A stretch of 39,231 nt of DNA from Verrucomicrobiota bacterium. GTDB lineage: Bacteria > Verrucomicrobiota > Verrucomicrobiia > Limisphaerales > VHCN01. Positions 2,177-29,534 of this stretch are shown here, piece by piece; within the stretch, counting starts at the first letter, position 1; every line of letters starts with the position of its first letter. The stretch is taken from the NCBI GenBank assembly GCA_016871675.1, contig VHCN01000028.1, positions 1-39,231 on the forward strand. Direction: 5' to 3'. The notes under the pieces were generated by a model that was not told the origin of the DNA, did not search any database, and worked only from the letters and a program-made list of their open reading frames with translations. The translations under genes and the position numbers were made by a program.

Positions 2177-3226
2177 ATGAAACCCATTCCAAGCCTCCTC
2201 CTGATTGCCGCCGCCGCCGTGGGCGTGTCCCTCACCGCAATGCTCGCCGCTGATTCCTCCGCACTCAAGAAGTGGCAGAAAGGAAAGGGCTGGGGCTGGG
2301 TGTGGGGCAAGGACGACGAGGTCGGCGCCCTGAACGAGATGACGGACGCGTCCCGCCTGGCCGCCCTGCGACTGGTCACACGCGGCAAGACTTACGACCT
2401 TGGCGTGCTTTACGACCGAACGAGCTACAAGTGGCCGGGCCACAGCCCGGGCGAAATCATGAGCTTCCGCACGCCCGAGGGCGTGAAGCGGCAGGGCGAC
2501 CTGCCGTTCGTCGGTCCGGACCCGAGCAAGACGGGCTGGCACAGTTGCGCCCTGTTCATCAACGACAACGTCGCGACACAGATCGACGGGCTCGGCCATG
2601 CGACGATGGGGGACGACGACCACTGGTATAATGGTTTCCGCGAGCGCGACTGGGGCGGCAACTGGGGCCAGCGGAAGTGTGACGCGTCCACCATTCCGCC
2701 GATCGTCGCGCGCGGCGTGCTCGTGGATGTCGCGGGCACGAAGGGCGTCGATGCGCTGCCCGCCCACACCATCATCACCGTGGCAGACATCGAGGCGGCG
2801 TTGACACGGCAGGGAACGCAGCTCCGGCCGGGCGACGTGGTGTTGATTCGCACGGGAACGCTTCGCTACTGGGCGCAGACCGGCGCCGACCACAAGAAAA
2901 TCTCCGAGCACGACTCCGCGGGCATCAATCTCGAAACCGCCAAATGGCTTGTCGAACAGAACGGAGCAATGATGATCGGCTCGGACACCAGCGGCCTTGA
3001 ATACGGCCCGAAGGAATCCGACGCCGGGGCGTTCCGCGCCCGATACCGGTCCTTCATGCCCGTGCACAACTACCTGCTCATCGAGCAGGGCGTTCACATC
3101 GCGGAGTTCCATTACCTCGAGGACTTGGCGAAGGAGAAAGTCTACGAATTCGCCTACTTCTGCGCCGTGAACAAGGTCAAGGGCGCGGCCTCGGGATTCA
3201 CGCTGCGCCCCGTCGCGATGCGGTGA
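2177..3226 (+). CDS. Secreted cyclase-family (kynurenine formamidase-like) hydrolase
   Basis: A 349-residue protein of the cyclase family (PF04199), metal-dependent hydrolases that include bacterial kynurenine formamidase and isatin hydrolase. The ATG at 2177 was chosen because it begins a good signal peptide (residues 1-25, hydrophobic core LLLIAAAAVGVSL, AMLAA end); the open frame further upstream has no such feature. The metal-binding segment reads ATQIDGLGH (Asp137, His141). The usual leading HxGTH is altered to NDNVATQ, a change also found in longer cyclase-family proteins. His297 in MPVHNYLL and Glu310 in HIAEFHYLEDL fit the conserved C-terminal His and Glu. The export signal makes a role in tryptophan degradation unlikely; the substrate is unknown. 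It appears monocistronic, with glnS starting 126 bp downstream. Confidence 0.88.
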   Translation: MKPIPSLLLIAAAAVGVSLTAMLAADSSALKKWQKGKGWGWVWGKDDEVGALNEMTDASRLAALRLVTRGKTYDLGVLYDRTSYKWPGHSPGEIMSFRTPEGVKRQGDLPFVGPDPSKTGWHSCALFINDNVATQIDGLGHATMGDDDHWYNGFRERDWGGNWGQRKCDASTIPPIVARGVLVDVAGTKGVDALPAHTIITVADIEAALTRQGTQLRPGDVVLIRTGTLRYWAQTGADHKKISEHDSAGINLETAKWLVEQNGAMMIGSDTSGLEYGPKESDAGAFRARYRSFMPVHNYLLIEQGVHIAEFHYLEDLAKEKVYEFAYFCAVNKVKGAASGFTLRPVAMR

Positions 3227-3352
3227 TCGGGCGGTTGGGCGCATTCTGACGATCCGCTGAAGCAGGTGAGCGGTGGGCGGCGTCCGCTTCGCACGCGCCG
3301 CGTGCCTTCTTGCAATCCGGCTGCAGCTTCGGCGATTCTCCGCTCCCGCGAC

Positions 3353-5152
3353 ATGAGCGAAGAGACTCCCAGCGCGCCGGCGGCCCCGGGCGATTTCATC
3401 CGCGACATTGTCGCGGCGGACCTCGCGTCCGGCAAACACAGCCGCATCGTCACGCGCTTTCCGCCCGAGCCGAACGGCTACCTCCACATCGGCCACGCCA
3501 AGAGCATCTGCCTGAATTTCGGACTCGCGCGAGAGAACGCCGGCCAGTGCAACCTCCGCATGGACGACACCAACCCGACGAAGGAAGACGTCGAGTATGT
3601 CGAGTCCATCACCGCCGACGTGAACTGGCTCATCGCCGGCTGGGCCGGCGACCGCCTCGGCTTGAAGGCGAAAGGCCGCACTCCCACCGGCCAACTCGTG
3701 GACGGAAAGCGCGACTTTTTCCTCCCGGCCGTCGCGCACAACGCACCGCGCGGCACGGTAGAACCGTTCTACGCCTCGGATTATTTCGCCCAGTGCTACG
3801 AGTTCGCGCTCGACCTTGTCCGCAAGGGCAAGGCTTACGTCTGCGACCTCTCGCCCGCGGACACCGACGCGTATCGCGGTTCGCCCGACCGGCCCGGCAG
3901 GGACTCGCCGTTTCGCGAGCGCCCGACACCGGAAAACCTTGAACTTTTCCAGCGCATGAAAGCCGGCGAGTTTCCCGACGGCACGCGCACGCTGCGGGCG
4001 AAGATTGACATGACGTCGCCGAACGTCTGGCTGCGAGACCCGGTGTTGTATCGCATCCGCCACGCCAAGCATCACCACACGGGCGCGGCGTGGTGCATCT
4101 ATCCGATGTATGACTTCGCGCACTGCCTGAGCGACTACATCGAGGGCATCACGCACAGCATCTGCACGCTGGAATTCGAGGTGCACCGGCCGCTCTACGA
4201 CTGGATCCTCCAAAACCTCGACCTCCCGCGCCCGCTGCCTCGCCAGATCGAGTTCGCGAAGCTCATCCCCACCTACACCATCGTCTCCAAGCGCAAGCTC
4301 ATCCAACTCGTCAACGAGCGGCTCGTCACGGGCTGGGACGACCCGCGCCTGCCGACCATCAGCGGCCTGCGGCGGCGCGGCATCCCGGCGAGCGCGGTGC
4401 GCCAGTTCGCCTACCACATCGGCGTCACGAAGTTCAACTCCGTCACGGACATCGCCGTCTTCGAGCACGCGATTCGCGAGGACTTGAACGCGCGCGCGTT
4501 GCGCCGGCTCGCCGTGCTGCGCCCGCTCAAGCTGCTCATCACGAATCTTCCCGGCGGACACTTCGAGGAACTCGACGCGGTGAACAATCCCGAGGACGCC
4601 GCGGCCGGCACGCGCAAAATCCCCTTCAGCCGCGAGCTGTTCATCGAGCGGGACGACTTCATGGAAGCCGCGCCGCCCAAATTCTTCCGCCTGAAACCCG
4701 GCGGCGAAGTCCGCCTCAAATACGCCTACATCGTGAAGTGCGACGACGTGGTGAAAGACGCCGCGGGCAACATCACCGAACTGCGCTGCACCGCCGACCT
4801 CGACAGCAAGACCGGTGGCGCGACCTCGAATCGCAAAGTGAAAGGCACCATCCATTGGGTCAGCGCCGCGCATGCCGTGGACGCCGAGGCGCGTCTCTAC
4901 GACCGCCTCTTCTCCGAGGCCGAACCCGAAAGGGACGGCCGCGACTTCAAGACCGCGCTCAACCCGCGCAGCCTCGAAATCGTCACCGCGAAATGCGAAC
5001 CGTCGTGCAAAGCAGCCCGTGCTGAGGACCGCTATCAGTTCGAGCGCCTCGGCTACTTTGCGCTCGATCCCGACGGCGCGCCCGGCAGGCCCGTCTTCAA
5101 CCGCACCATCACCTTGAGGGACACGTGGGCGAAGGAATCGCAGAAGGGTTGA
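3353..5152 (+). CDS. glnS: Glutamine--tRNA ligase
   Basis: GlnRS (EC 6.1.1.18) charges tRNA-Gln with glutamine in the cytoplasm. The 599-residue product aligns along its length with the E. coli enzyme as I recall it. The N-terminus FIRDIV.ADLASGKHS leads into the class I signature PNGYLHIGHAKSI (HIGH at 45-48); VSKRKL near 311-315 replaces KMSKS; GWDDPRLPTISGLRRRG and the C-terminal anticodon-binding beta-barrels (KGTIHWVSAAHA, PVFNRTITLRDTWAK) follow. The ATG at 3353 was chosen because the E. coli-like N-terminus begins just after it. It is about 45 residues longer than the E. coli enzyme, mostly because of an insertion of about 34 residues at roughly 93-142, between WLIAGWAG and YASDYF, in the Rossmann core. 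The stop overlaps the start of the next gene, so the two are probably cotranscribed. Confidence 0.97.
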   Translation: MSEETPSAPAAPGDFIRDIVAADLASGKHSRIVTRFPPEPNGYLHIGHAKSICLNFGLARENAGQCNLRMDDTNPTKEDVEYVESITADVNWLIAGWAGDRLGLKAKGRTPTGQLVDGKRDFFLPAVAHNAPRGTVEPFYASDYFAQCYEFALDLVRKGKAYVCDLSPADTDAYRGSPDRPGRDSPFRERPTPENLELFQRMKAGEFPDGTRTLRAKIDMTSPNVWLRDPVLYRIRHAKHHHTGAAWCIYPMYDFAHCLSDYIEGITHSICTLEFEVHRPLYDWILQNLDLPRPLPRQIEFAKLIPTYTIVSKRKLIQLVNERLVTGWDDPRLPTISGLRRRGIPASAVRQFAYHIGVTKFNSVTDIAVFEHAIREDLNARALRRLAVLRPLKLLITNLPGGHFEELDAVNNPEDAAAGTRKIPFSRELFIERDDFMEAAPPKFFRLKPGGEVRLKYAYIVKCDDVVKDAAGNITELRCTADLDSKTGGATSNRKVKGTIHWVSAAHAVDAEARLYDRLFSEAEPERDGRDFKTALNPRSLEIVTAKCEPSCKAARAEDRYQFERLGYFALDPDGAPGRPVFNRTITLRDTWAKESQKG

Positions 5153-6252
5153 GCGGCCCCGCAAGGGTGCTGCCGCTGTTGCTCCTCTGCCTTGCGAACG
5201 GCGGCTGCCAGACGGCCGGCTACTACTCGCAAGCCATCCGCGGCCACTGCCAGGTCGTTGCGCGACAGCAATCCATCGCGACAATTCTAAACGACCCGAA
5301 GACCCCCGAACCCCTCAAGGCCAGGCTCCAGCTTGTGCTCGAACTTCGTGCGTTCGCGGATTCGGAGCTGAAACTGCCCGCCAAGCGCCACTACTCCCGC
5401 TACGCGGATCTCGGCCGGCGCTTCGTCGTCTGGAACGTCAGCGCCACGCCGGAATTCTCGATGGAATCCAAGTCGTGGTGGTATCCGCTCGCAGGCCGGC
5501 TCGAATATCGCGGGTTCTTCGAAGAAGCCTCCGCGCGCCAACTCGCCGCGAAACTGGCGGGCGAGGGCTTCGACGTGGACGTCGGCGGCGTGCAAGCCTA
5601 CTCGACGCTCGGCTGGTTCAGCGACCCGGTGCTCAACACGTTCATCCACGACTCCGAAATCGACCTTGCGGAACTGCTCTTCCACGAACTCGCGCACCAG
5701 CGGCTGTTCGTCGCCGGCGACACGGATTTCAGCGAAGCGTTCGCCGAATGCGTCGCGGAGGAGGGCACTCGCCGCTGGCTTCGCGCCCGCGGCAGCGCGG
5801 CGGCGCGGGCGGCTTACGAGGCGAAGCTCGTGCGCAAGGCGGAGTTCACGCGACTCATCACCTCCACGCGCACGCGGCTCGCGGAGCTTTTTTGCAGGGT
5901 CGCCCCGGAGGTGCCGCCATTGGCGCCCGTCTCCATGCTCGATCCGGACCGGGCTGCGGAGATGCGGCGCCGGAAGCAGGACGTGTTCGAAACGCTCCGG
6001 CGCGACTACGAAGCGCTCAAGTCCACGTGGGGCGGCGCGACCGATTACGAGGGCTGGTTCAAGCGCCCGCTCAACAACGCCCGGCTCAACGACGTGGACA
6101 CGTATTACCGGCTCGTGCCGTCGTTCCACGCGCTGCTGCGCTCCTGCGACGGCGATTTGGAGAAGTTCTTCCGCGAGGCAAAGGCGCTTGGAAAACTTCC
6201 AAAGCTCGAACGGCACCGCGTTCTCGACGGGCGCGGCGCGCCCAAGAAGTGA
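5125..6252 (+). CDS. Putative zinc aminopeptidase (COG4324-like), probable lipoprotein
   Basis: A gluzincin-type metallopeptidase of the 'predicted aminopeptidase' family (PF10023-like). It carries the zinc motif HELAHQ (187-191 for HELAH) and a downstream SEAFAE stretch whose Glu204 would be the third zinc ligand. The N-terminus has a hydrophobic run VLPLLLLCLANGG then Cys28, an imperfect lipobox, so envelope anchoring is likely but not certain. The start is ambiguous. GTG at 5125 (TGAGGG 5115-5120 just upstream) gives 375 residues and overlaps glnS by 28 bp; TTG at 5149 overlaps the glnS stop by 4 bp and gives 367 residues. Both keep the signal. The stop overlaps a possible GTG of the tcdA frame. 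Function beyond peptide-bond hydrolysis is unknown. Confidence 0.83.
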   Translation: MGEGIAEGLSGPARVLPLLLLCLANGGCQTAGYYSQAIRGHCQVVARQQSIATILNDPKTPEPLKARLQLVLELRAFADSELKLPAKRHYSRYADLGRRFVVWNVSATPEFSMESKSWWYPLAGRLEYRGFFEEASARQLAAKLAGEGFDVDVGGVQAYSTLGWFSDPVLNTFIHDSEIDLAELLFHELAHQRLFVAGDTDFSEAFAECVAEEGTRRWLRARGSAAARAAYEAKLVRKAEFTRLITSTRTRLAELFCRVAPEVPPLAPVSMLDPDRAAEMRRRKQDVFETLRRDYEALKSTWGGATDYEGWFKRPLNNARLNDVDTYYRLVPSFHALLRSCDGDLEKFFREAKALGKLPKLERHRVLDGRGAPKK

Positions 6253-6317
6253 AGCCGGCGCCCGCCAACGGTCCGGCGAACTTGGCAAATGCAGGCACGG
6301 CGGTTACGACTTCCGCG

Positions 6318-7130
6318 GTGAGCGACTACGCACAACGCTTCGGCGGCATCGCGAGACTCTACGGCGCCACGGGACTCGCCCGGCTTTGCGCGGCCCGCGT
6401 CTGCGTCATCGGGCTGGGCGGCGTCGGCTCGTGGGCCGTCGAGGCGCTCGCGCGCTCGGGCGTCGGCGCGCTCACGCTTGTGGACCTCGACGAAGTGTGC
6501 GTGAGCAACGTGAACCGCCAGCTTCACGCAATGGACGGGTTCGTCGGCCGCCCGAAGGCGGACGTGCTCGCGGAACGCGTCCTCGCCATCAATCCCGCTT
6601 GTCGTGTCACGCCGGTCGCGCAGTTCTTCACCGAGTCCACCGCCCGGTCCATTTTCTCCGGCCGTTTCGACGCCGTGTTCGACGCCATTGACGCGGTCTC
6701 CAACAAAGTCCGGCTTCTTGCGAAATGTCGTGAGTTGAGAATCCCGATTGTCACCTCCGGCGGCGCGGGCGGGCGGCGCGACCCCGCTGCGATTCGGGTG
6801 GCAGATCTCGCGTTCACGGAACGCGACCGCCTCCTCAACAAAGTCCGCGCGCAGCTCCGCAAACACCACGGTTTCCCGCGCGAGCGGGAGGCGTTCGGCA
6901 TCCCGTGTATCTACTCGCCCGAGCCGCCGGTGTTTCCGGTCGCGGACGGTTCCGTGTGTTCCGAGCGCCCCGCCGGGACGAAGCCCGGCGGGCTGCAACT
7001 CAACTGCGAATCGGGCTTCGGCGCAGCCACGTTCGTGACGGGCACGTTTGGATTTGTCGCGGCGGCCGAGATCGTCAAGCGGATCGTCAGCGGGCCGGCG
7101 GAACCTGCCGCGAAGGAAACAGGCGGTTGA
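6318..7130 (+). CDS. tcdA: tRNA threonylcarbamoyladenosine dehydratase (TcdA/CsdL, E1-like fold)
   Basis: TcdA cyclises t6A37 of ANN-decoding tRNAs to the hydantoin form ct6A, using ATP. The protein (270 residues from this start) has the E1-like Rossmann nucleotide site VCVIGLGGVGSWAVEALAR (GxGGVG at 32-37), the LVDLDEVCVSNVNRQLHA segment, VFDAIDAVSNK, VTSGGAGGRRDP and the closing CESGFGAATFVTGTFGFVAA; all match E. coli TcdA. The GTG at 6318 gives MSDYAQRFGGIARLYG, which matches family N-termini. An in-frame GTG at 6249 overlaps the upstream stop and would add 23 residues. It sits third in the glnS run, so three genes linked to translation or proteolysis are probably coupled. Its 3' end overlaps the convergent tatD gene by 44 bp. 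Confidence 0.93.
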   Translation: MSDYAQRFGGIARLYGATGLARLCAARVCVIGLGGVGSWAVEALARSGVGALTLVDLDEVCVSNVNRQLHAMDGFVGRPKADVLAERVLAINPACRVTPVAQFFTESTARSIFSGRFDAVFDAIDAVSNKVRLLAKCRELRIPIVTSGGAGGRRDPAAIRVADLAFTERDRLLNKVRAQLRKHHGFPREREAFGIPCIYSPEPPVFPVADGSVCSERPAGTKPGGLQLNCESGFGAATFVTGTFGFVAAAEIVKRIVSGPAEPAAKETGG

Positions 7131-7911
7131 AATTCTCCTCCACCCTCGCGGCCAGCGACTCCAACGGGCAGCCCAGGAAATCCGCGGCGAAGCGATACAC
7201 CGCGGCAAGGTTCGCGGGATGGTTCAACGGCGTGCCCGTTGCCGAATCGCTCAACGGGTGGGCGTTCAGTTCTTCCGGAAGCAACTGGTCCGGCGCGTCC
7301 GTTTCGATCAGGAGCCGGTCGGGCGGCACGGAGCGGAACGTCTCGCGCTGGCGCACCTTTCGTTTGTGAGCGAAGTAGCCTGGCAGGGAGAAGAAGGCGC
7401 CGAGTTTCGCGAGCGGGGCGACCATCTCGGCGGGTCCGCCGAAGCTGTGCAGGATGAACCCGGGCGCCGGTCGCGGACCTTCCCGCAACAGGTCAAGCAT
7501 CCGGCCCCAAGCTTGGAGGCAGTGAATACTCGCGGGCACGTCCAGTTCGGTTGCGAGTTCGAGTTGCGCGATGAAGGCTTCCTCCTGGCCGTCGTAGCCC
7601 AGCCCCGGCTTCCAGCGGTCCAGCCCGATTTCGCCAACGGCGGCTCCGGGCGTTGCTGCAAGTGTGCGCCCCAATTGCTCCCGCCACCCGGAGGTTTGCT
7701 CCTGTAGATGCCACGGGTGATACCCAAAACAGGGCACGACGAGATCCGGGTGCGCGCGGGCGAGCGCGGCGACTTGCGGCCAGTCCTGCTCGCACGAGCC
7801 GTTGACGACCATCCGCGCCACACCCACGGCGCGACACGACGCGATGTGTTCCTCCTGCCGGCCGCCGAAGCGGTCGTCGTGCAGGTGATTGTGCGCGTCG
7901 AAGAGCCTCAC
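7087..7911 (-). CDS. tatD: TatD family metal-dependent hydrolase
   Basis: A 274-residue TIM-barrel metallohydrolase of the TatD/YcfH family, cytoplasmic enzymes with 3'-5' exonuclease or D-aminoacyl-tRNA deacylase activity depending on the member. Metal ligands are complete: His7 and His9 in DAHNHLHD, Glu94 in VGEIGLD, His130 in SIHCLQAW, His155 in LHSFGG and Asp205 in IETDAP. The start is a GTG at 7909-7911 that overlaps the TGA of sufE by 4 bp, a sign of translational coupling. The last 44 bp overlap tcdA on the other strand; both reading frames carry family sequence close to their ends, so the overlap looks genuine. Which substrate it uses cannot be told from sequence. Confidence 0.93.
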   Translation of the reverse strand: MRLFDAHNHLHDDRFGGRQEEHIASCRAVGVARMVVNGSCEQDWPQVAALARAHPDLVVPCFGYHPWHLQEQTSGWREQLGRTLAATPGAAVGEIGLDRWKPGLGYDGQEEAFIAQLELATELDVPASIHCLQAWGRMLDLLREGPRPAPGFILHSFGGPAEMVAPLAKLGAFFSLPGYFAHKRKVRQRETFRSVPPDRLLIETDAPDQLLPEELNAHPLSDSATGTPLNHPANLAAVYRFAADFLGCPLESLAARVEENFNRLFPSRQVPPAR

Positions 7912-24500: not shown

Positions 24501-25186
24501 CGGAGAAGGAGTTGCTCGGTTTCTACGTCACCGGCCACCCGCTCACTCCGTGGGCGCCGGTCCTCAAAAAAGTGGCGCTCCACACCTCCCTGACCATCGT
24601 CCAGCTCGACCACCGCGCGATGACGCGCATCGGCGGGCTCGTCACCGGCGTGCAACGAGCCATCTCTCGCAAGAGCAACAAGCCGTATCTCAAGGCCGCC
24701 ATCGAGGACCTCGACGGCTCCACGCCCGTCTTTCTCATCAACGAAGGCTACGAGAAGTTCCAGCAGCTCTTCGTGCCAAACAAGCCGGTGCTTGTCCTCG
24801 GGGAGGTCAACAAGGGCGACAAGGAACTCACACTGTATCCCACCGAGGTGTTGCCCCTGGCAGACGCGCCGAGACGATTCACCAAGCAGGTCCATCTGCG
24901 CCTCCACACGGCCCACCTCACCACCGCCTTGATGGAGACAATCCGCGCCATCGCCGAGGCTCACCGGGGCGTGTGCCCGCTCTTTCTCTGTCTCAAGCGC
25001 GCGGGCGGCGAGATCGTTTTCATCGAGGCCAATGACCGCTTCAGTGTCATGCCCTCGCGCGAGCTGCAGATGGCTTTCGACGACCTGCTCGGCGAGGACA
25101 CCTACTACGCGAAAGTGGACACGACGCCGCCCGAGCGCCCGGTCCGCAAATGGGACCGGCGCGCCGAATCGAACGGCGAGGAATGA
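21554..25186 (+). CDS. dnaE: DNA polymerase III subunit alpha
   Basis: The catalytic subunit of the replicative polymerase (EC 2.7.7.7), 1210 residues, slightly longer than E. coli DnaE (1160). The N-terminal PHP domain starts [15 protein letters not shown] and contains [10 protein letters not shown]. The palm carries the catalytic aspartates in [14 protein letters not shown] near residue 440-452, preceded by [81 protein letters not shown] and [10 protein letters not shown] follow. The beta-clamp/OB-fold part ([18 protein letters not shown]) lies near 1020-1110. It is a standard DnaE1-type enzyme without an embedded exonuclease. The TGA at 25184-25186 is followed by 150 bp before the ABC transporter operon. 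Confidence 0.98.
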
Positions 25187-25336
25187 TCCGCGCGGCGCGT
25201 GGCGGTTCGAGATTCATCGTCCGGCGGCACGAACGAGTCCCGCCACACGGCCCGGCCAACCTCCACTTCGCGTCGCGCCACGCATCGCCACCAGTCTCCG
25301 CGTGACACGTCCTCGAGGCTCTGCTTCCATCGGCGC

Positions 25337-26014
25337 GTGCCATTGCTGGAGATCAACGGGCTGAAGAAATCGTTCGCGACGCCGGACGGCGGGACGCACT
25401 GCGTGGTCGACATCGGGGACTTCACGCTCGGCGAACGCGAGCAACTGGCGCTCAGCGGCGAGAGCGGTTCGGGAAAGACCACTTTCCTCAACCTGATCGC
25501 CGGCATCCTGACGCCCGACGCGGGAAGCATCCGGCTCAACGGCACCGACCTCGGCCCGTTGGCCGAGCGCGAGCGCGACCGCCTCCGCGCGACGTCCATC
25601 GGCTACATTTTCCAGACCTTCAACCTGCTGCAGGGCTACTCGGCGATCGAAAACGTGCTGCTCGGAATGTCCTTCGGCCCCGGCGCCGAACGGCCGTTCG
25701 CCGAAATGCTGCTGCGCCGCGCGGGACTCGCGGAAAAACTCCGGCACCTGCCGCGGCAGCTCTCCACCGGGCAGCAACAGCGGGTCGCGGTCGCGCGCGC
25801 GCTGGCCAACCGCCCCAAGCTCGTCCTCGCCGACGAACCCACCGGCAATCTCGACCACGCCAACGCGCGCGAGGCGCTGCGGCTCATCCGCGACATGTGC
25901 CACGAGAGCGGCGCCGCGCTCCTGCTCGTGAGCCACGACCACGAGGTGCTTTCGGCCTTCGACAAAGTGCAGGAACTCGCGAAGCTGAACCGGGCCGCGG
26001 TCGCAACCCAATGA
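25337..26014 (+). CDS. ABC transporter ATP-binding protein (MacB/LolD type)
   Basis: A 225-residue nucleotide-binding subunit with every canonical motif: Walker A GESGSGKT (41-48), Q-loop Gln93 in YIFQTFNLL, signature LSTGQQQR (142-149), Walker B LVLADEP with catalytic Glu167, D-loop NLDHANA and H-loop His200 in LLVSHD. The IFQTFNLL and TGNLD stretches place it in the MacB/LolD/FtsE group, whose partners are FtsX-type permeases that act mechanically across the envelope. GTG 25337 gives MPLLEINGLKKSF; the open frame before it lacks homology. Its TGA overlaps the permease ATG by 4 bp. It contrasts with the degenerate ATPase at 35205-35990 in this window. Confidence 0.95.
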   Translation: MPLLEINGLKKSFATPDGGTHCVVDIGDFTLGEREQLALSGESGSGKTTFLNLIAGILTPDAGSIRLNGTDLGPLAERERDRLRATSIGYIFQTFNLLQGYSAIENVLLGMSFGPGAERPFAEMLLRRAGLAEKLRHLPRQLSTGQQQRVAVARALANRPKLVLADEPTGNLDHANAREALRLIRDMCHESGAALLLVSHDHEVLSAFDKVQELAKLNRAAVATQ

Positions 26015-27213
26015 CACTCGTTCACATCGTCCTCCGCTCGCTGCGCCAGCACGCGCTTTCGACCTGCATCACCGCGGCGTCGATCGCGCTCGCCGGCGGG
26101 CTGCTCATGGCGGTGTGGACGGTGAAGGTCCGCTCGCAGGCGGCGTTCACTCAGATGCAGTCGGGCTTCGACGGCGTGCTCGGCCCTCGCAGCGCGCAGC
26201 TTCAGCTCGTCCTCAACTCCATCTTCCACCTCGACCAATCGCCCGGCACGATGGCGTGGAGCGATTACACGCAGATCAAGTCCAACGGCGCCGTCGCCCT
26301 CGCGTTGCCCATCACCGTCGGCGACAACTACCACGGCTTCCGGCTCGTCGGCACGCTCACGAACCTGTTCACCGACGTCGAATACGCGCCCGGTCGAAAG
26401 TATCGCGTCGCGGCCGGCGGACCCTTCCTCGCCGGGCACGCCGAGGCGGTCGTGGGAAGTTTCGTCGCGCAGCGGCTTGGGATGAAGGTGGGCGACACGT
26501 TCCACCCCTACCACGGGCTCATCTTCGACGAGAAGCAGCAGCACGCCGAAACATACGTGGTCACCGGCATCCTCGAGCCATCGAACACGCCCGCGGACCG
26601 CGTGATCTGGATTCCGCTCGAGGGCATCCAGAACATGAAGGGGCACGACGCCCGCACCGCCAGCGACGTGAGCGCGGTGCTGGTGAAACTCCGGGCCGCC
26701 CCCGCGGGACGCCAGCTCGACCTGCTTTACAATAAGCAGGGCAACCGCCTCACCTTCGCGTGGCCCGTCGCCGCGGTGATGGCGCAGCTGTTCGACCGGA
26801 TCGCGTGGTTCGACCGCGTGTTGGAGCTGGTCGCCATGCTCGTCGCGCTCGTAGCCACGGGTTCGGTGCTCGCGAGCATCTACAACTCGATGAACGAACG
26901 CCGGCGCGACATTGCCATCCTGCGCGCGCTCGGCGCCCGCGCCCGCACGATTTTCTGCACGGTGGTCCTCGAAGCCGCGGGCATCGCGGTGCTCGGCATG
27001 GCCGCGGGCTTCGCCGTGTATGCCGTCATCGCGCTTGGCGTCGCATCGGTGATTCGCGCACAGACCGGCGTCGTGCTTGAACCGCTCGCCTGGCATCCGG
27101 TGCAAGTGGTCGCACCGCTGGCGATGATCGGGTTGAGCGCGCTCGCCGGAATCGTCCCCGCGGCGAAGGCTTATCGAACGAATGTGGCGGACAACCTCGT
27201 GCCCGTGTCGTGA
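26011..27213 (+). CDS. ABC transporter permease, FtsX/MacB-like family
   Basis: A 400-residue permease with the MacB/LolC-type layout: an N-terminal helix (about 14-37, ITAASIALAGGLLMAVW), a long periplasmic domain (about 38-265), then three helices (about 268-292, 318-345 and 370-390) in the FtsX domain. NSMNERRRDIAILRALGARARTIF is the conserved cytoplasmic loop that couples to the ATPase, and AGIVPAAKAYRTNVADNLVPV is the usual C-terminus. The ATG overlaps the ATPase stop (ATGA). Such systems do not normally import; they extract lipoproteins, expel peptides or drugs, or drive periplasmic machines. The substrate is unknown; two lipoproteins encoded directly downstream are candidate partners. 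An inverted repeat starts immediately after its TGA. Confidence 0.92.
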   Translation: MTLVHIVLRSLRQHALSTCITAASIALAGGLLMAVWTVKVRSQAAFTQMQSGFDGVLGPRSAQLQLVLNSIFHLDQSPGTMAWSDYTQIKSNGAVALALPITVGDNYHGFRLVGTLTNLFTDVEYAPGRKYRVAAGGPFLAGHAEAVVGSFVAQRLGMKVGDTFHPYHGLIFDEKQQHAETYVVTGILEPSNTPADRVIWIPLEGIQNMKGHDARTASDVSAVLVKLRAAPAGRQLDLLYNKQGNRLTFAWPVAAVMAQLFDRIAWFDRVLELVAMLVALVATGSVLASIYNSMNERRRDIAILRALGARARTIFCTVVLEAAGIAVLGMAAGFAVYAVIALGVASVIRAQTGVVLEPLAWHPVQVVAPLAMIGLSALAGIVPAAKAYRTNVADNLVPVS

Positions 27214-27232
27214 CCCCGACTCGGAGTCGGGG
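27214..27232. repeat. 19-bp palindromic repeat, copy 1
   Basis: CCCCGACT (27214-27221), a 3-base loop CGG, then AGTCGGGG (27225-27232): a perfect 8-bp inverted repeat beginning at the first base after the permease stop codon. A closely related palindrome occurs at 27766-27784, bracketing the small lipoprotein gene. There is no T-run after it, so it is not a standard terminator. It may be a REP-like element or an mRNA-stabilising hairpin. Confidence 0.75.
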
Positions 27233-27294
27233 GATGGCACTTTCCCGCGCCAAGATTGAGCATCCAACACCCATCCTCCGTCGAACCCCGCACC

Positions 27295-27792
27295 ATGACC
27301 CGACGCCAAATCCTTGTTCTCACCTGCGCCGCAGCGGCGACCCTCTCATTCGCAGCGTGCAACCGCACCGCCGCGCCGACCGGCCCGAACGGTCATTATC
27401 ACGAACCTCCGCATGGCGGGACCGTGCTCGAGCTTGGCGACGAGGAGGCGTTTCTGGAATTCGTGCACGATGCGGCGGCGGACAAGCTGCGCTGCTACGT
27501 GCTCGCGCCGCACATGGCGGGCTTCGTCCGGCTGGAGGCGGAGGCGTTTGAGGTGGCGGCCAGGTTCGCCGGCAAGGCGGAGTCACTCCACTTCAAGGCC
27601 GTGGCGAACGATGCGACGGGTGAGACTGTGGGCAACACCGCGCAGTTCGAGGCGGCGGCGCCGTGGCTGAAGGCCGCGAAGAAGTTCGACGCGGAGTTGA
27701 AACGCCTGACGATCCGCGGTAAGACTTACGACGCTGTCCCGTTCCGTTTTCCCGAGGGCAATTACCCCCGACGCCGAGTCGGGGCGCAATGA
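27295..27792 (+). CDS. Small lipoprotein with HxHxxxH motif
   Basis: A 165-residue putative lipoprotein: MTRRQILVLTCAAAATLSFAAC has a lipobox with Cys22. Just after the anchor comes GHYHEPPHGG (His34, His36, His40), then TVLELGDEEAFLEFVHD. The PHGG..ELG....EFV pattern is one I have seen in PVC-phylum small proteins and near metal-efflux adaptor domains, so metal binding is plausible but unproven. The remainder is one compact domain. ATG 27295 was chosen because it begins the lipoprotein signal; an in-frame ATG at 27256 adds 13 unlikely residues. The final eight or so codons are formed by a palindromic repeat (27766-27784), so the C-terminus may be an accident of repeat insertion. It lies 81 bp after the permease gene and 10 bp before the DUF3299-like gene. 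Confidence 0.78.
   Translation: MTRRQILVLTCAAAATLSFAACNRTAAPTGPNGHYHEPPHGGTVLELGDEEAFLEFVHDAAADKLRCYVLAPHMAGFVRLEAEAFEVAARFAGKAESLHFKAVANDATGETVGNTAQFEAAAPWLKAAKKFDAELKRLTIRGKTYDAVPFRFPEGNYPRRRVGAQ
27766..27784. repeat. 19-bp palindromic repeat, copy 2 (inside a coding region)
   Basis: CCCCGAC (27766-27772), a 5-base loop GCCGA, then GTCGGGG (27778-27784). It shares its arms with the repeat at 27214-27232 and differs mainly in the centre. It lies within the last codons of the small lipoprotein gene, which translate as PRRRVGAQ before the stop. Confidence 0.72.
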
Positions 27793-27802
27793 AAAGGCAC
27801 CC

Positions 27803-28498
27803 ATGAAGGCATTGTTCAACCCGACTCACGGGCCGGTGTCCGCCGCAGGCGCAATCGCCGTCGCGGCGCTGATGTCCGGTTGCGGACTCGGCGTGCAGAA
27901 GAGCGAGACCATTCCTGCCCCCGTCACGCGGGGTGAACCCATCCAGAAGCTTGAGGCGGCGCCCGCCGCAACGGTGTCGGGCAGCAACACCGCTCCCGCC
28001 AAGCTCGATCTGGTCGCCGCGGCGACCGCCGCCGCGTCCGGGGCGGAGCCCGTGGAAATGATGGGCGAATTCCGCATCGTCGGCTTCGACAAGCTCGCGT
28101 CCTACAACTACGACATCCCGGATGAATCGCCCGCCACCCGCGCCGCGGCCAATGTCGGCGAAGCGCCCGCGGCCAAGGACCAGATTCCCGACTCCGTGCG
28201 CGCGCTCAACGGGAAGAAGGTCGCGCTCAAAGGCTTCATGCTCCCGCTCAAAGTCGAGGGCGGGCTCATCACGGAACTGCTCATCATGCGCGACCAGTCC
28301 GCCTGCTGCTACGGCGCCACGCCCAAGATCAACGAGTGGGTCAGCGTGAAAATGTCGGGCAAGGGCGTGAAGCCCATCATGGACGTGCCGGTTGTCCTCA
28401 TGGGAAAGCTGCAAGTCGGCGAGATGCGTGAGAACGGCTACCTGGTCGGCATCTACGCGATGGACGGCGAGAAGATGACCGGGCCGCCTGAGCTGTAA
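27803..28498 (+). CDS. DUF3299-like lipoprotein
   Basis: A 231-residue protein with a lipoprotein leader (AALMSGC, Cys27), a Pro/Ala-rich spacer up to about residue 85, and a C-terminal domain (about 88-231) resembling DUF3299 (PF11736). The domain reads ALNGKKVALKGFMLPLKVEGG, then LIMRDQSACCYGATPKINEWV with a Cys168-Cys169 pair, then VLMGKLQVGEMRENGYLVGIYAMDGEK. DUF3299 proteins are small beta-rich secreted proteins of unknown role, and the Cys pair is a family feature. AAAAGG lies 5 bases before ATG 27803, a good ribosome binding site. With the ABC ATPase, permease and His-rich lipoprotein it appears to form a four-gene unit. It is convergent with the broken DUF1501 gene, 21 bp away. Confidence 0.8.
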   Translation: MKALFNPTHGPVSAAGAIAVAALMSGCGLGVQKSETIPAPVTRGEPIQKLEAAPAATVSGSNTAPAKLDLVAAATAAASGAEPVEMMGEFRIVGFDKLASYNYDIPDESPATRAAANVGEAPAAKDQIPDSVRALNGKKVALKGFMLPLKVEGGLITELLIMRDQSACCYGATPKINEWVSVKMSGKGVKPIMDVPVVLMGKLQVGEMRENGYLVGIYAMDGEKMTGPPEL

Positions 28499-28519
28499 CG
28501 CGAGCGCATCCGGCGTTGC

Positions 28520-29324
28520 TCAGGCCGGCATCCCGGGGAGGATCTCCGCAATCGGTTCGCCGCCCGGCAGAATCGGCATCGGCCGGCCGGAGTGGTCGAG
28601 GAAGCTCCCGGTCCAGTCAATGCCGAGATGGCGATAGACCGTGGCCCACCAATCTTCCGGCTTGAGCGGGCGCTCGGTCGGATACTCGCCGCGCGAGTTC
28701 GTCGCGCCGACCACTTGGCCCGTGCGCATTCCGCCGCCGAGCAATCTCGCGCGGTCATCAAGCGGGTCGGCCATTCCCGGCGCGATGCCGAGATTCTCGA
28801 CCTTGAAGCCCTCGACGCCCGGGTCGCCTGCCACGAAGAACGGTGTCGTGGTGCTGCCGAGATAGGCGGAACCGAAGCTGAACGTGTCCACGCCCTGCCG
28901 GCCGCCGTCCACCTCGGCGATGTAGTTGGGCAGGCCGCGTTTCACGTGCTCGCGCAACTTCGAGACGACGGAGCCGGCCATCGGGTTGTCGTTCACGAAG
29001 CCCGCGGGTTCCTTGGGCTTGTAGCCGGTGAGGAAGCGCTTGTGCCCGCCGCCGTGGTCGGCGAACTCGTGCGACACGGAGCGGATGAGCGTGTATTTGT
29101 CCGCGCACTTGGCGTGGAGCGGAAGCAGCTCGCAAACCTCCATGCCGGGGACGTTGGTCTTGGTGGAGAAGATGCCGCGATATTCCGCCGGCGCGTCCGG
29201 CTTCATGTCGTAGGTCTCCATGTGCGGCGGGCCGCAGGCGGAAGCAGTCGCTCATCCCGAGCCCGCCGAGCGTGAGCGCGCCGACTTCGAGGAAGCTGCG
29301 GCCATTTCGCCCGCGGCGACGAAT
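28520..29324 (-). pseudogene. DUF1501 gene broken by an internal deletion/frameshift
   Basis: The C-terminal 233 codons (29221 down to 28520) are an intact DUF1501 frame: METYDMKPDAPAEYRG, IRSVSHEFADHGGGHKRFLTG, GDPGVEGFKVENLG, NSRGEYPTERPLKPEDWWATVYRHLGIDW and GRPMPILPGGEPI. The N-terminal piece lies upstream in another frame (about 29324 down to 29240): RRRGRNGRSFLEVGALTLGGLGMSDCFRLR, the standard DUF1501 opening. In intact relatives about 20-30 residues (a spacer and a hydrophobic strand ending in GGP) separate these segments; here they are missing and the frame changes. The N-terminal piece also lacks an ATG/GTG/TTG; only an ATT at 29322-29324 is well placed. It is distinct from the intact copy at the window start. 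Confidence 0.78.
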
Positions 29325-29534
29325 GGCTGACGAGTCGCCCGCGCCTGATATTCCGCGCGACGAGGAGTTCCCTTCACCGACTCATCCTGCCGGCGCCGGT
29401 AACAAAACCTCCGGCGCAAATCGCGCGCCGTTGACGGGAAGGCGACGCCAACGAGGGTATTGCAATTTATCCGCGACATGGCATCCTTTGCCCGCGAGTT
29501 AGCTTGGTTGTCTCGTCAGGGCATGGTGGATCTT

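Follow-up and report, generated by a model that had tools for sequence, protein, structure and literature searches.

What does a MacB/FtsX-type ATP-binding cassette (ABC) transporter do in an operon that it shares with a histidine-rich lipoprotein and a DUF3299 protein? The question is raised by positions 25,337 to 28,498 of contig VHCN01000028.1 from a Verrucomicrobiota bacterium (order Limisphaerales), analyzed as a stretch of 39,231 nucleotides, here called the window. An earlier note on this DNA had proposed an uncharacterised, possibly metal-related envelope system. As judged from sequence, the operon is a variant of zrgABCDE of Vibrio and PA4063-PA4066 of Pseudomonas, the nearest described system, so "uncharacterised" has to be dropped: zinc phenotypes and a pyochelin-export proposal have been published for that system (PMC9817125, PMC9820375, PMC11481552). 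We lean slightly toward an envelope metal system that resembles Zrg (PA4063-PA4066), with a His-rich beta-sandwich lipoprotein of unrelated origin standing in for ZrgA. Its most likely function would be the ATP-driven envelope handling of zinc, a similar metal or its chelate, because the permease has conserved Asp and His residues, the lipoprotein is rich in His, and Fur and MerC genes occur nearby in relatives. The metal relation that had been raised as a possibility is a likely one.

The ATPase, permease, His-rich lipoprotein and DUF3299 genes all lie on the + strand, and a frame-aware gene call on the window recovers the same four. The ATPase and permease genes overlap by four bases (ATGA), 81 bp separate the permease and lipoprotein genes, and a further 10 bp precede the DUF3299 gene, exactly the layout described in the earlier note. 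By Pfam, the ATPase matches ABC_tran (107 bits) and the permease matches both FtsX (49.7 bits) and MacB_PCD (39.7 bits). The closest NCBIfam models are LolD for the ATPase (175 bits, cut-off 308) and LolCE for the permease (62 bits, cut-off 362), both matches falling far below threshold, and the MacB equivalog scores 33 bits against a cut-off of 966, which places the proteins outside MacB and LolCE proper. The permease has one transmembrane (TM) helix, a periplasmic core domain between TM1 and TM2, and three C-terminal TM helices in all after the core. Its predicted model, with a predicted local distance difference test (pLDDT) score of 88, matches 5xu1 best (VIA-align Z 25.8), followed by LolE (23.4), MacB (19.7) and FtsX (17.2). 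On the strength of this model, and with the FtsX and MacB_PCD domains and the periplasmic core present, the permease is a type VII ABC protein of the MacB/LolE/FtsX fold, in keeping with the MacB/FtsX-type pair with envelope partners first suggested.

The fourth protein matches PF11736 (DUF3299) at 31.1 bits, above the cut-off of 22, and PDB entry 4hsp at E=1.5e-7; 4hsp is named as PA4066 and assigned an OB-like fold in PMC8561739. The Cys168-Cys169 pair of the window protein, read from the sequence earlier, is invariant in both DUF3299 alignments. The idea that both downstream genes encode lipoproteins fits the window, where the His-rich protein has a lipobox at C22 and the DUF3299 protein a lipobox-like Cys27. 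It does not extend to all DUF3299 relatives, of which 21/36 and 16/40 carry the lipobox-like Cys, so lipidation is not conserved. DUF3299 genes can also be repeated: one locus (L031) holds three DUF3299 frames, and tandem pairs occur in two of three Poribacteria loci (L226 and L230) and in Rhodobacteraceae SC52.

Kinship to the Zrg system shows on plasmids. Among 72,556 plasmid records, 88 match the permease at E<=1e-10; the top match, on a plasmid of Pseudomonas aeruginosa, lies in the order DUF2796-ATPase-permease-DUF3299. This record, the sole plasmid match to the DUF3299 protein of the window, encodes a DUF3299 protein that matches 4hsp and a DUF2796 protein that matches PA4063. The same gene order is found in Rhodobacteraceae SC52 and in Phaeobacter, the latter with a Fur gene in front. 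A permease tree was built from 14 window-type sequences, 11 sequences from plasmid loci linked to DUF3299 or a DUF3299-like gene, and the remaining FtsX proteins encoded by the window's own genome (7 out of 8, one fragment being left out). The 25 DUF3299-linked permeases separate from the 7 paralogues with support of 96/97, the 11 outside permeases having been chosen by similarity to the window permease, so that the sample is not neutral, and long branches being flagged among the paralogues. Window-type permeases cluster together, next to the ZrgB-type sequences and not among them. The linked permeases share GD[NS], HG, H178 and D196, all in the periplasmic domain, of which D196 is less specific than the others (Table 1).

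The window operon resembles zrgABCDE and PA4063-PA4066 in having separate ATPase and type VII permease genes plus a DUF3299 gene, a common permease Asp/His signature, and a His-rich envelope protein encoded alongside. In contrast, it has no ZrgA/DUF2796; its His-rich component is a lipoprotein of another predicted fold, placed between the permease and DUF3299; the DUF3299 protein has CC where the Pseudomonas protein has CIH; and DUF2607, the designation of ZrgD (PMC9817125), has no match among the four proteins. The same report describes zrg genes of V. parahaemolyticus induced 76- to 206-fold by zinc limitation, among them zrgE, annotated DUF3299, and zrgA, annotated DUF2796, both strongly induced. 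ZrgA of V. cholerae is described as a solute-binding protein required for zinc-limited growth, and the system there depends on zrgA (PMC9820375). MacAB-TolC and LolCDE share the predicted permease fold but differ in equivalog scores, in having unrelated accessory proteins, and in a MacA-like gene and a LolC/LolE pair, respectively, neither of which is found among the four genes. Campylobacter fetMP-fetABCDEF, which is described as joining an ABC transporter (fetBCD) with periplasmic FetP/P19 (PMC10783030), has a weak counterpart in the fold of the lipoprotein, although no window protein matches FetM, FetA or the thioredoxin family. Literature searches joining MacB, zinc and DUF2796 found nothing; judged from titles, those on Verrucomicrobia, zinc, Zur and ABC transporters returned nothing on such an operon, and those on MerC with Zur and zinc nothing relevant.

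Co-occurrence was counted in 146 genomes of the order, the window's genome being the sole representative of its family. Each genome was counted as an independent case, an assumption that does not hold. DUF3299 is present in 72 genomes, the permease (E<=1e-20; a single match in 71 of 75 genomes) in 75 and the His lipoprotein in 60; by genus (n=93) the figures are 44, 47 and 37. Permease and DUF3299 occur together in 69 genomes, as opposed to 9 with a single gene (DUF3299 only in 3, permease only in 6), and 68 have neither (phi 0.88). For DUF3299 and the lipoprotein, both are present in 55 genomes, one or the other in 17 and 5, and neither in 69 (phi 0.71). Permease and DUF3299 lie within 8 kb of each other in 41 of the 69 co-occurring genomes; in the other 28, some of them fragmented assemblies but including a one-contig genome, they are far apart or on different contigs, and the pair is therefore often retained without adjacency. 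Surroundings were inspected in 79 stretches with 82 DUF3299 frames, of which 2 below 60 bits and 10 with less than 2 kb upstream were left out. Within 5 kb upstream on the same strand, the remaining 70 have the permease in 39 cases, the lipoprotein in 33, both in 25 and neither in 23. A separate draw of 194 genomes from the phylum, the window's own included (permease at E<=1e-15), gave DUF3299 in 16 and the permease in 17, with both in 16, permease only in 1 and neither in 177; 15 of the 16 pairs are on a single contig and 12 lie within about 1.2 kb. The conserved linkage on which the earlier note had staked its proposal is thus present, and the four-gene grouping is more than chance because it is conserved in relatives.

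The lipoprotein carries its GHYHEPPHGG cluster at residues 33-42, behind the C22 lipobox, as first noticed, and has no Pfam match. The HxHxxxHGG motif is kept in 26/33 and 28/33 relatives, and the lipobox Cys, H34, H36, G41-G42 and E55 are invariant or at least 90% conserved in the family. Foldseek with the predicted model returned nothing at E<=0.001. At the head of the VIA matches stand a DUF4426 protein, copper-resistance protein CrdA and proteins of the P19/FetP/Tp34 type, with Z of 6 to 8, a level that according to the tool may reflect no more than a common arrangement; for P19/FetP, Z is 6-7, below the tool's trust limit of 8. We rejected the lipoprotein as a ZrgA homologue, since Pfam, hhalign and the PDB fold search gave no support: its profile aligned to three ZrgA proteins with a probability of 5% (the ZrgA profile being small), and among 33 family members a single one reached ZrgA, with an E value no better than 0.077. 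The fold matches listed for the lipoprotein include neither PA4063 (7ahw) nor 8ezw, a zinc-binding protein, which leaves room for a likeness. ZrgA's place is thus taken by an HxHxxxH lipoprotein with a predicted beta-sandwich fold and no detectable relation to ZrgA.

Beyond the order, searching GTDB species with an alignment of the permease yielded at least 581 loci. Of the best 80, 73 have the ATPase upstream, and among the 68 with more than 1.5 kb downstream, DUF3299 is found there in 43 and the lipoprotein in 26. Most of these 80 bear Verrucomicrobia titles, with three Poribacteria and one Brocadiia; titles such as Klebsiella, Akkermansia and Euryarchaeota look like mislabelled bins. Permease and DUF3299 are present in all three Poribacteria loci and in the Brocadiia locus; the operon thus recurs on contigs of both groups. 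The lipoprotein is at the matching place in the three Poribacteria loci, and Brocadiia has a lipoprotein-family protein without a lipobox. In the Brocadiia locus (L231), the upstream gene at 1194-2519 has no Pfam match and encodes a putative outer-membrane barrel whose N-terminus is rich in His. The permease neighbor in Deinococcus, Thermus, Paracoccus and Rhizobium is not annotated DUF3299, and Pfam gave no match in the three scanned (Deinococcus, Paracoccus and Rhizobium). A three-row profile of the Deinococcus, Thermus and Paracoccus proteins, which contain CPFC, aligns to DUF3299 with a probability of 90% (E=1.8e-6), and the Rhizobium frame matches the DUF3299 profile built here at 3e-6. 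The permease plus DUF3299(-like) pair is found here in five phyla, Verrucomicrobiota, Poribacteria, Planctomycetota, Pseudomonadota and Deinococcota. The rows with CPFC (L235, L250 and L249) read alkaline phosphatase, DUF3299-like gene, ATPase and permease, with a PCu(A)C gene added in Paracoccus; the phosphatase could be connected to the row through the provision of metal to a secreted metalloenzyme.

Neighboring genes point to metals in several places. In one locus (L045), only 4 bp separate the end of a gene of the Fur family (PF01475, 49 bits) from the start of the ATPase gene; a second (L175) carries the same Fur sequence and operon, and among the 199 loci searched a Fur gene next to the operon was found in one genome only. 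The three Poribacteria loci each have a MerC gene immediately in front of the ATPase, and a Catenovulum row reads MerC, DUF3299 (other strand), ATPase, permease. The window's own genome has a lipoprotein paralogue (103 amino acids, 53% identity over residues 30-91) on contig C81 (L143, 3321-7111), in a same-strand row of ABC-2 ATPase, ABC-2 permease, TPR protein, paralogue, MerC and FUR. We had considered a ZnuABC reading of the genes beside the paralogue and rejected it, as they encode ABC-2 and TPR proteins. The TPR protein is widespread among genomes of the order (81/146), and among 30 TPR loci with about 1.5 kb on each side a His-lipoprotein match was found at the own-genome locus only; separate searches turned up two further loci with both (L034 and L147). 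In L034 (genome G072, 2376-7327), ABC-2 permease and TPR genes directly precede ATPase-permease-lipoprotein-DUF3299, two systems in one row.

In the mechanism that we propose for a Zrg-like system, the HxHxxxH lipoprotein would collect zinc, a similar divalent metal or a chelate in the periplasm. ATP binding by the ATPase-permease pair, as in other type VII ABC proteins, would move the periplasmic core domain (mechanotransmission), and this movement may pass the metal or its chelate among the lipoprotein, a permease site formed by the conserved Asp and His residues as putative ligands, and the OB-like DUF3299 protein as a presumed transfer partner. We count in its favor the permease-DUF3299 co-occurrence, the plasmid DUF2796-ATPase-permease-DUF3299 operons, the 4hsp match, the permease tree and signature, the Fur/MerC context and the zinc response of zrg. 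Several findings weigh against it. ZrgA (PF10986), the best-tested zinc-binding part, is missing: it scores above cut-off in 0/146 genomes, with two weaker matches below. The predicted lipoprotein fold matches metal proteins weakly, with Z below 8, and 19 of 75 permease genomes have no detectable His lipoprotein. No permease lies within 5 kb upstream of 31/70 DUF3299 genes. A Fur profile run over 199 loci found, besides L045, only the paralogue locus and L175, and no Zur-box-like dyad is enriched above shuffles in 60 regions upstream of the ATPase gene. Finally, the published proposal for PA4063-PA4066 is that it exports pyochelin-cobalt and does not carry zinc (PMC11481552).

That proposal underlies the chief alternative, in which a MacB-type pump exports a metallophore or another small molecule, with the lipoproteins helping to pass the substrate to an outer-membrane channel. 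The permease fold class fits, PA4065 mutants are described with effects on intracellular pyochelin and cobalt (PMC11481552), and the ATPase-permease-DUF3299 row of Ruegeria and of Alisedimentitalea follows a gene annotated as biotin/lipoyl-binding, which Pfam assigns to the HlyD type in Ruegeria. Pfam, however, finds no membrane-fusion protein among the four window genes, and none was noted in Verrucomicrobia-type operons, where not every neighbor was family-scanned; we regard such an exporter as rather unlikely. Import into the cytoplasm, with the lipoprotein as a solute-binding protein feeding the permease, is what the zrg papers assume, and the role of ZrgA in zinc-limited growth (PMC9820375) speaks for it. 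It appears improbable here: type VII ABC proteins are described as coupling ATP binding to periplasmic domain movement and not as moving substrate across the inner membrane (PMC8277102), and the permease model has that fold, so that transfer within the envelope would be the better reading. A Lol-like lipoprotein-sorting or other envelope-maintenance ABC with no metal role would explain why LolD and LolCE are the best NCBIfam models and LolE is among the top structural matches. We consider it very improbable, as the scores fall far short of the cut-offs, the permease is missing from about half of the sampled genomes in the order, and neither the close tie to DUF3299 nor the MerC/Fur context fits.

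Table 1. Coordinates of the operon genes, permease signature residues and palindromes in the window.
Feature	Positions	Strand	Basis
ABC ATPase, LolD/MacB-type, 225 aa, GTG start	25337..26014	+	Gene call, Pfam; LolD model 175 bits, cut-off 308
Type VII ABC permease (MacB_PCD + FtsX), 400 aa	26011..27213	+	Pfam; predicted model; structure matches
G104-D105-N106 motif (GD[NS]) of permease	26320..26328	+	25/25 linked permeases vs 0/7 own-genome FtsX paralogues
H168-G169 motif of permease	26512..26517	+	25/25 vs 0/7 own-genome FtsX paralogues
H178 of permease	26542..26544	+	25/25 vs 0/7 own-genome FtsX paralogues
D196 of permease	26596..26598	+	25/25; Asp also in 5/7 paralogues, hence less specific
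19-bp palindrome, first copy, directly after permease stop	27214..27232		Sequence search
His-rich lipoprotein, 165 aa, lipobox Cys22, HxHxxxHGG residues 34-42, predicted beta-sandwich	27295..27792	+	Alignments, predicted model
19-bp palindrome, second copy, inside 3' end of lipoprotein gene	27766..27784		Sequence search
DUF3299 lipoprotein (ZrgE/PA4066 family), 231 aa, Cys168-Cys169	27803..28498	+	Pfam; PDB 4hsp E=1.5e-7

A near-perfect palindrome of 19 bp occurs in two copies that bracket the lipoprotein gene (Table 1), and no further copies with up to 2 mismatches were found in the 3.6-Mb genome. The second copy lengthens the lipoprotein frame, giving a C-terminal tail beyond the FPxGN end typical of most relatives. 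In the stretches that were folded, the palindromes as RNA hairpins did not outperform shuffled sequences. A scan of 25000-28700 found no promoter, and terminator-like sites there are at chance level only. Judged by eye from the translations, the gene 5' of the operon (1210 amino acids) resembles a DNA polymerase III alpha subunit, and the next gene 3' (28520-29479, - strand) looks like a DUF1501/sulfatase-like gene fragment split over overlapping frames.

The published accounts of Zrg/PA4063-PA4066 are split between zinc import (PMC9820375) and pyochelin-cobalt export (PMC11481552). A distant, ZrgA-free version suggests that the indispensable parts are the ATPase, the permease and DUF3299, and it singles out permease D105, H168 and H178 and the DUF3299 CC pair as targets for mutation. 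It is possible, if doubtful, that permease and DUF3299, not ZrgA, are the core of a distinct type VII ABC subfamily with a periplasmic Asp/His metal site, in which mechanotransmission would move metal between envelope proteins and the metal-binding partner would be exchangeable: Proteobacteria would use ZrgA, while Verrucomicrobiota, Poribacteria and Planctomycetota would use the HxHxxxH beta-sandwich lipoprotein and other groups perhaps PCu(A)C or MerC proteins. The ZrgA-free version also extends the system to a broad range of environmental bacteria.

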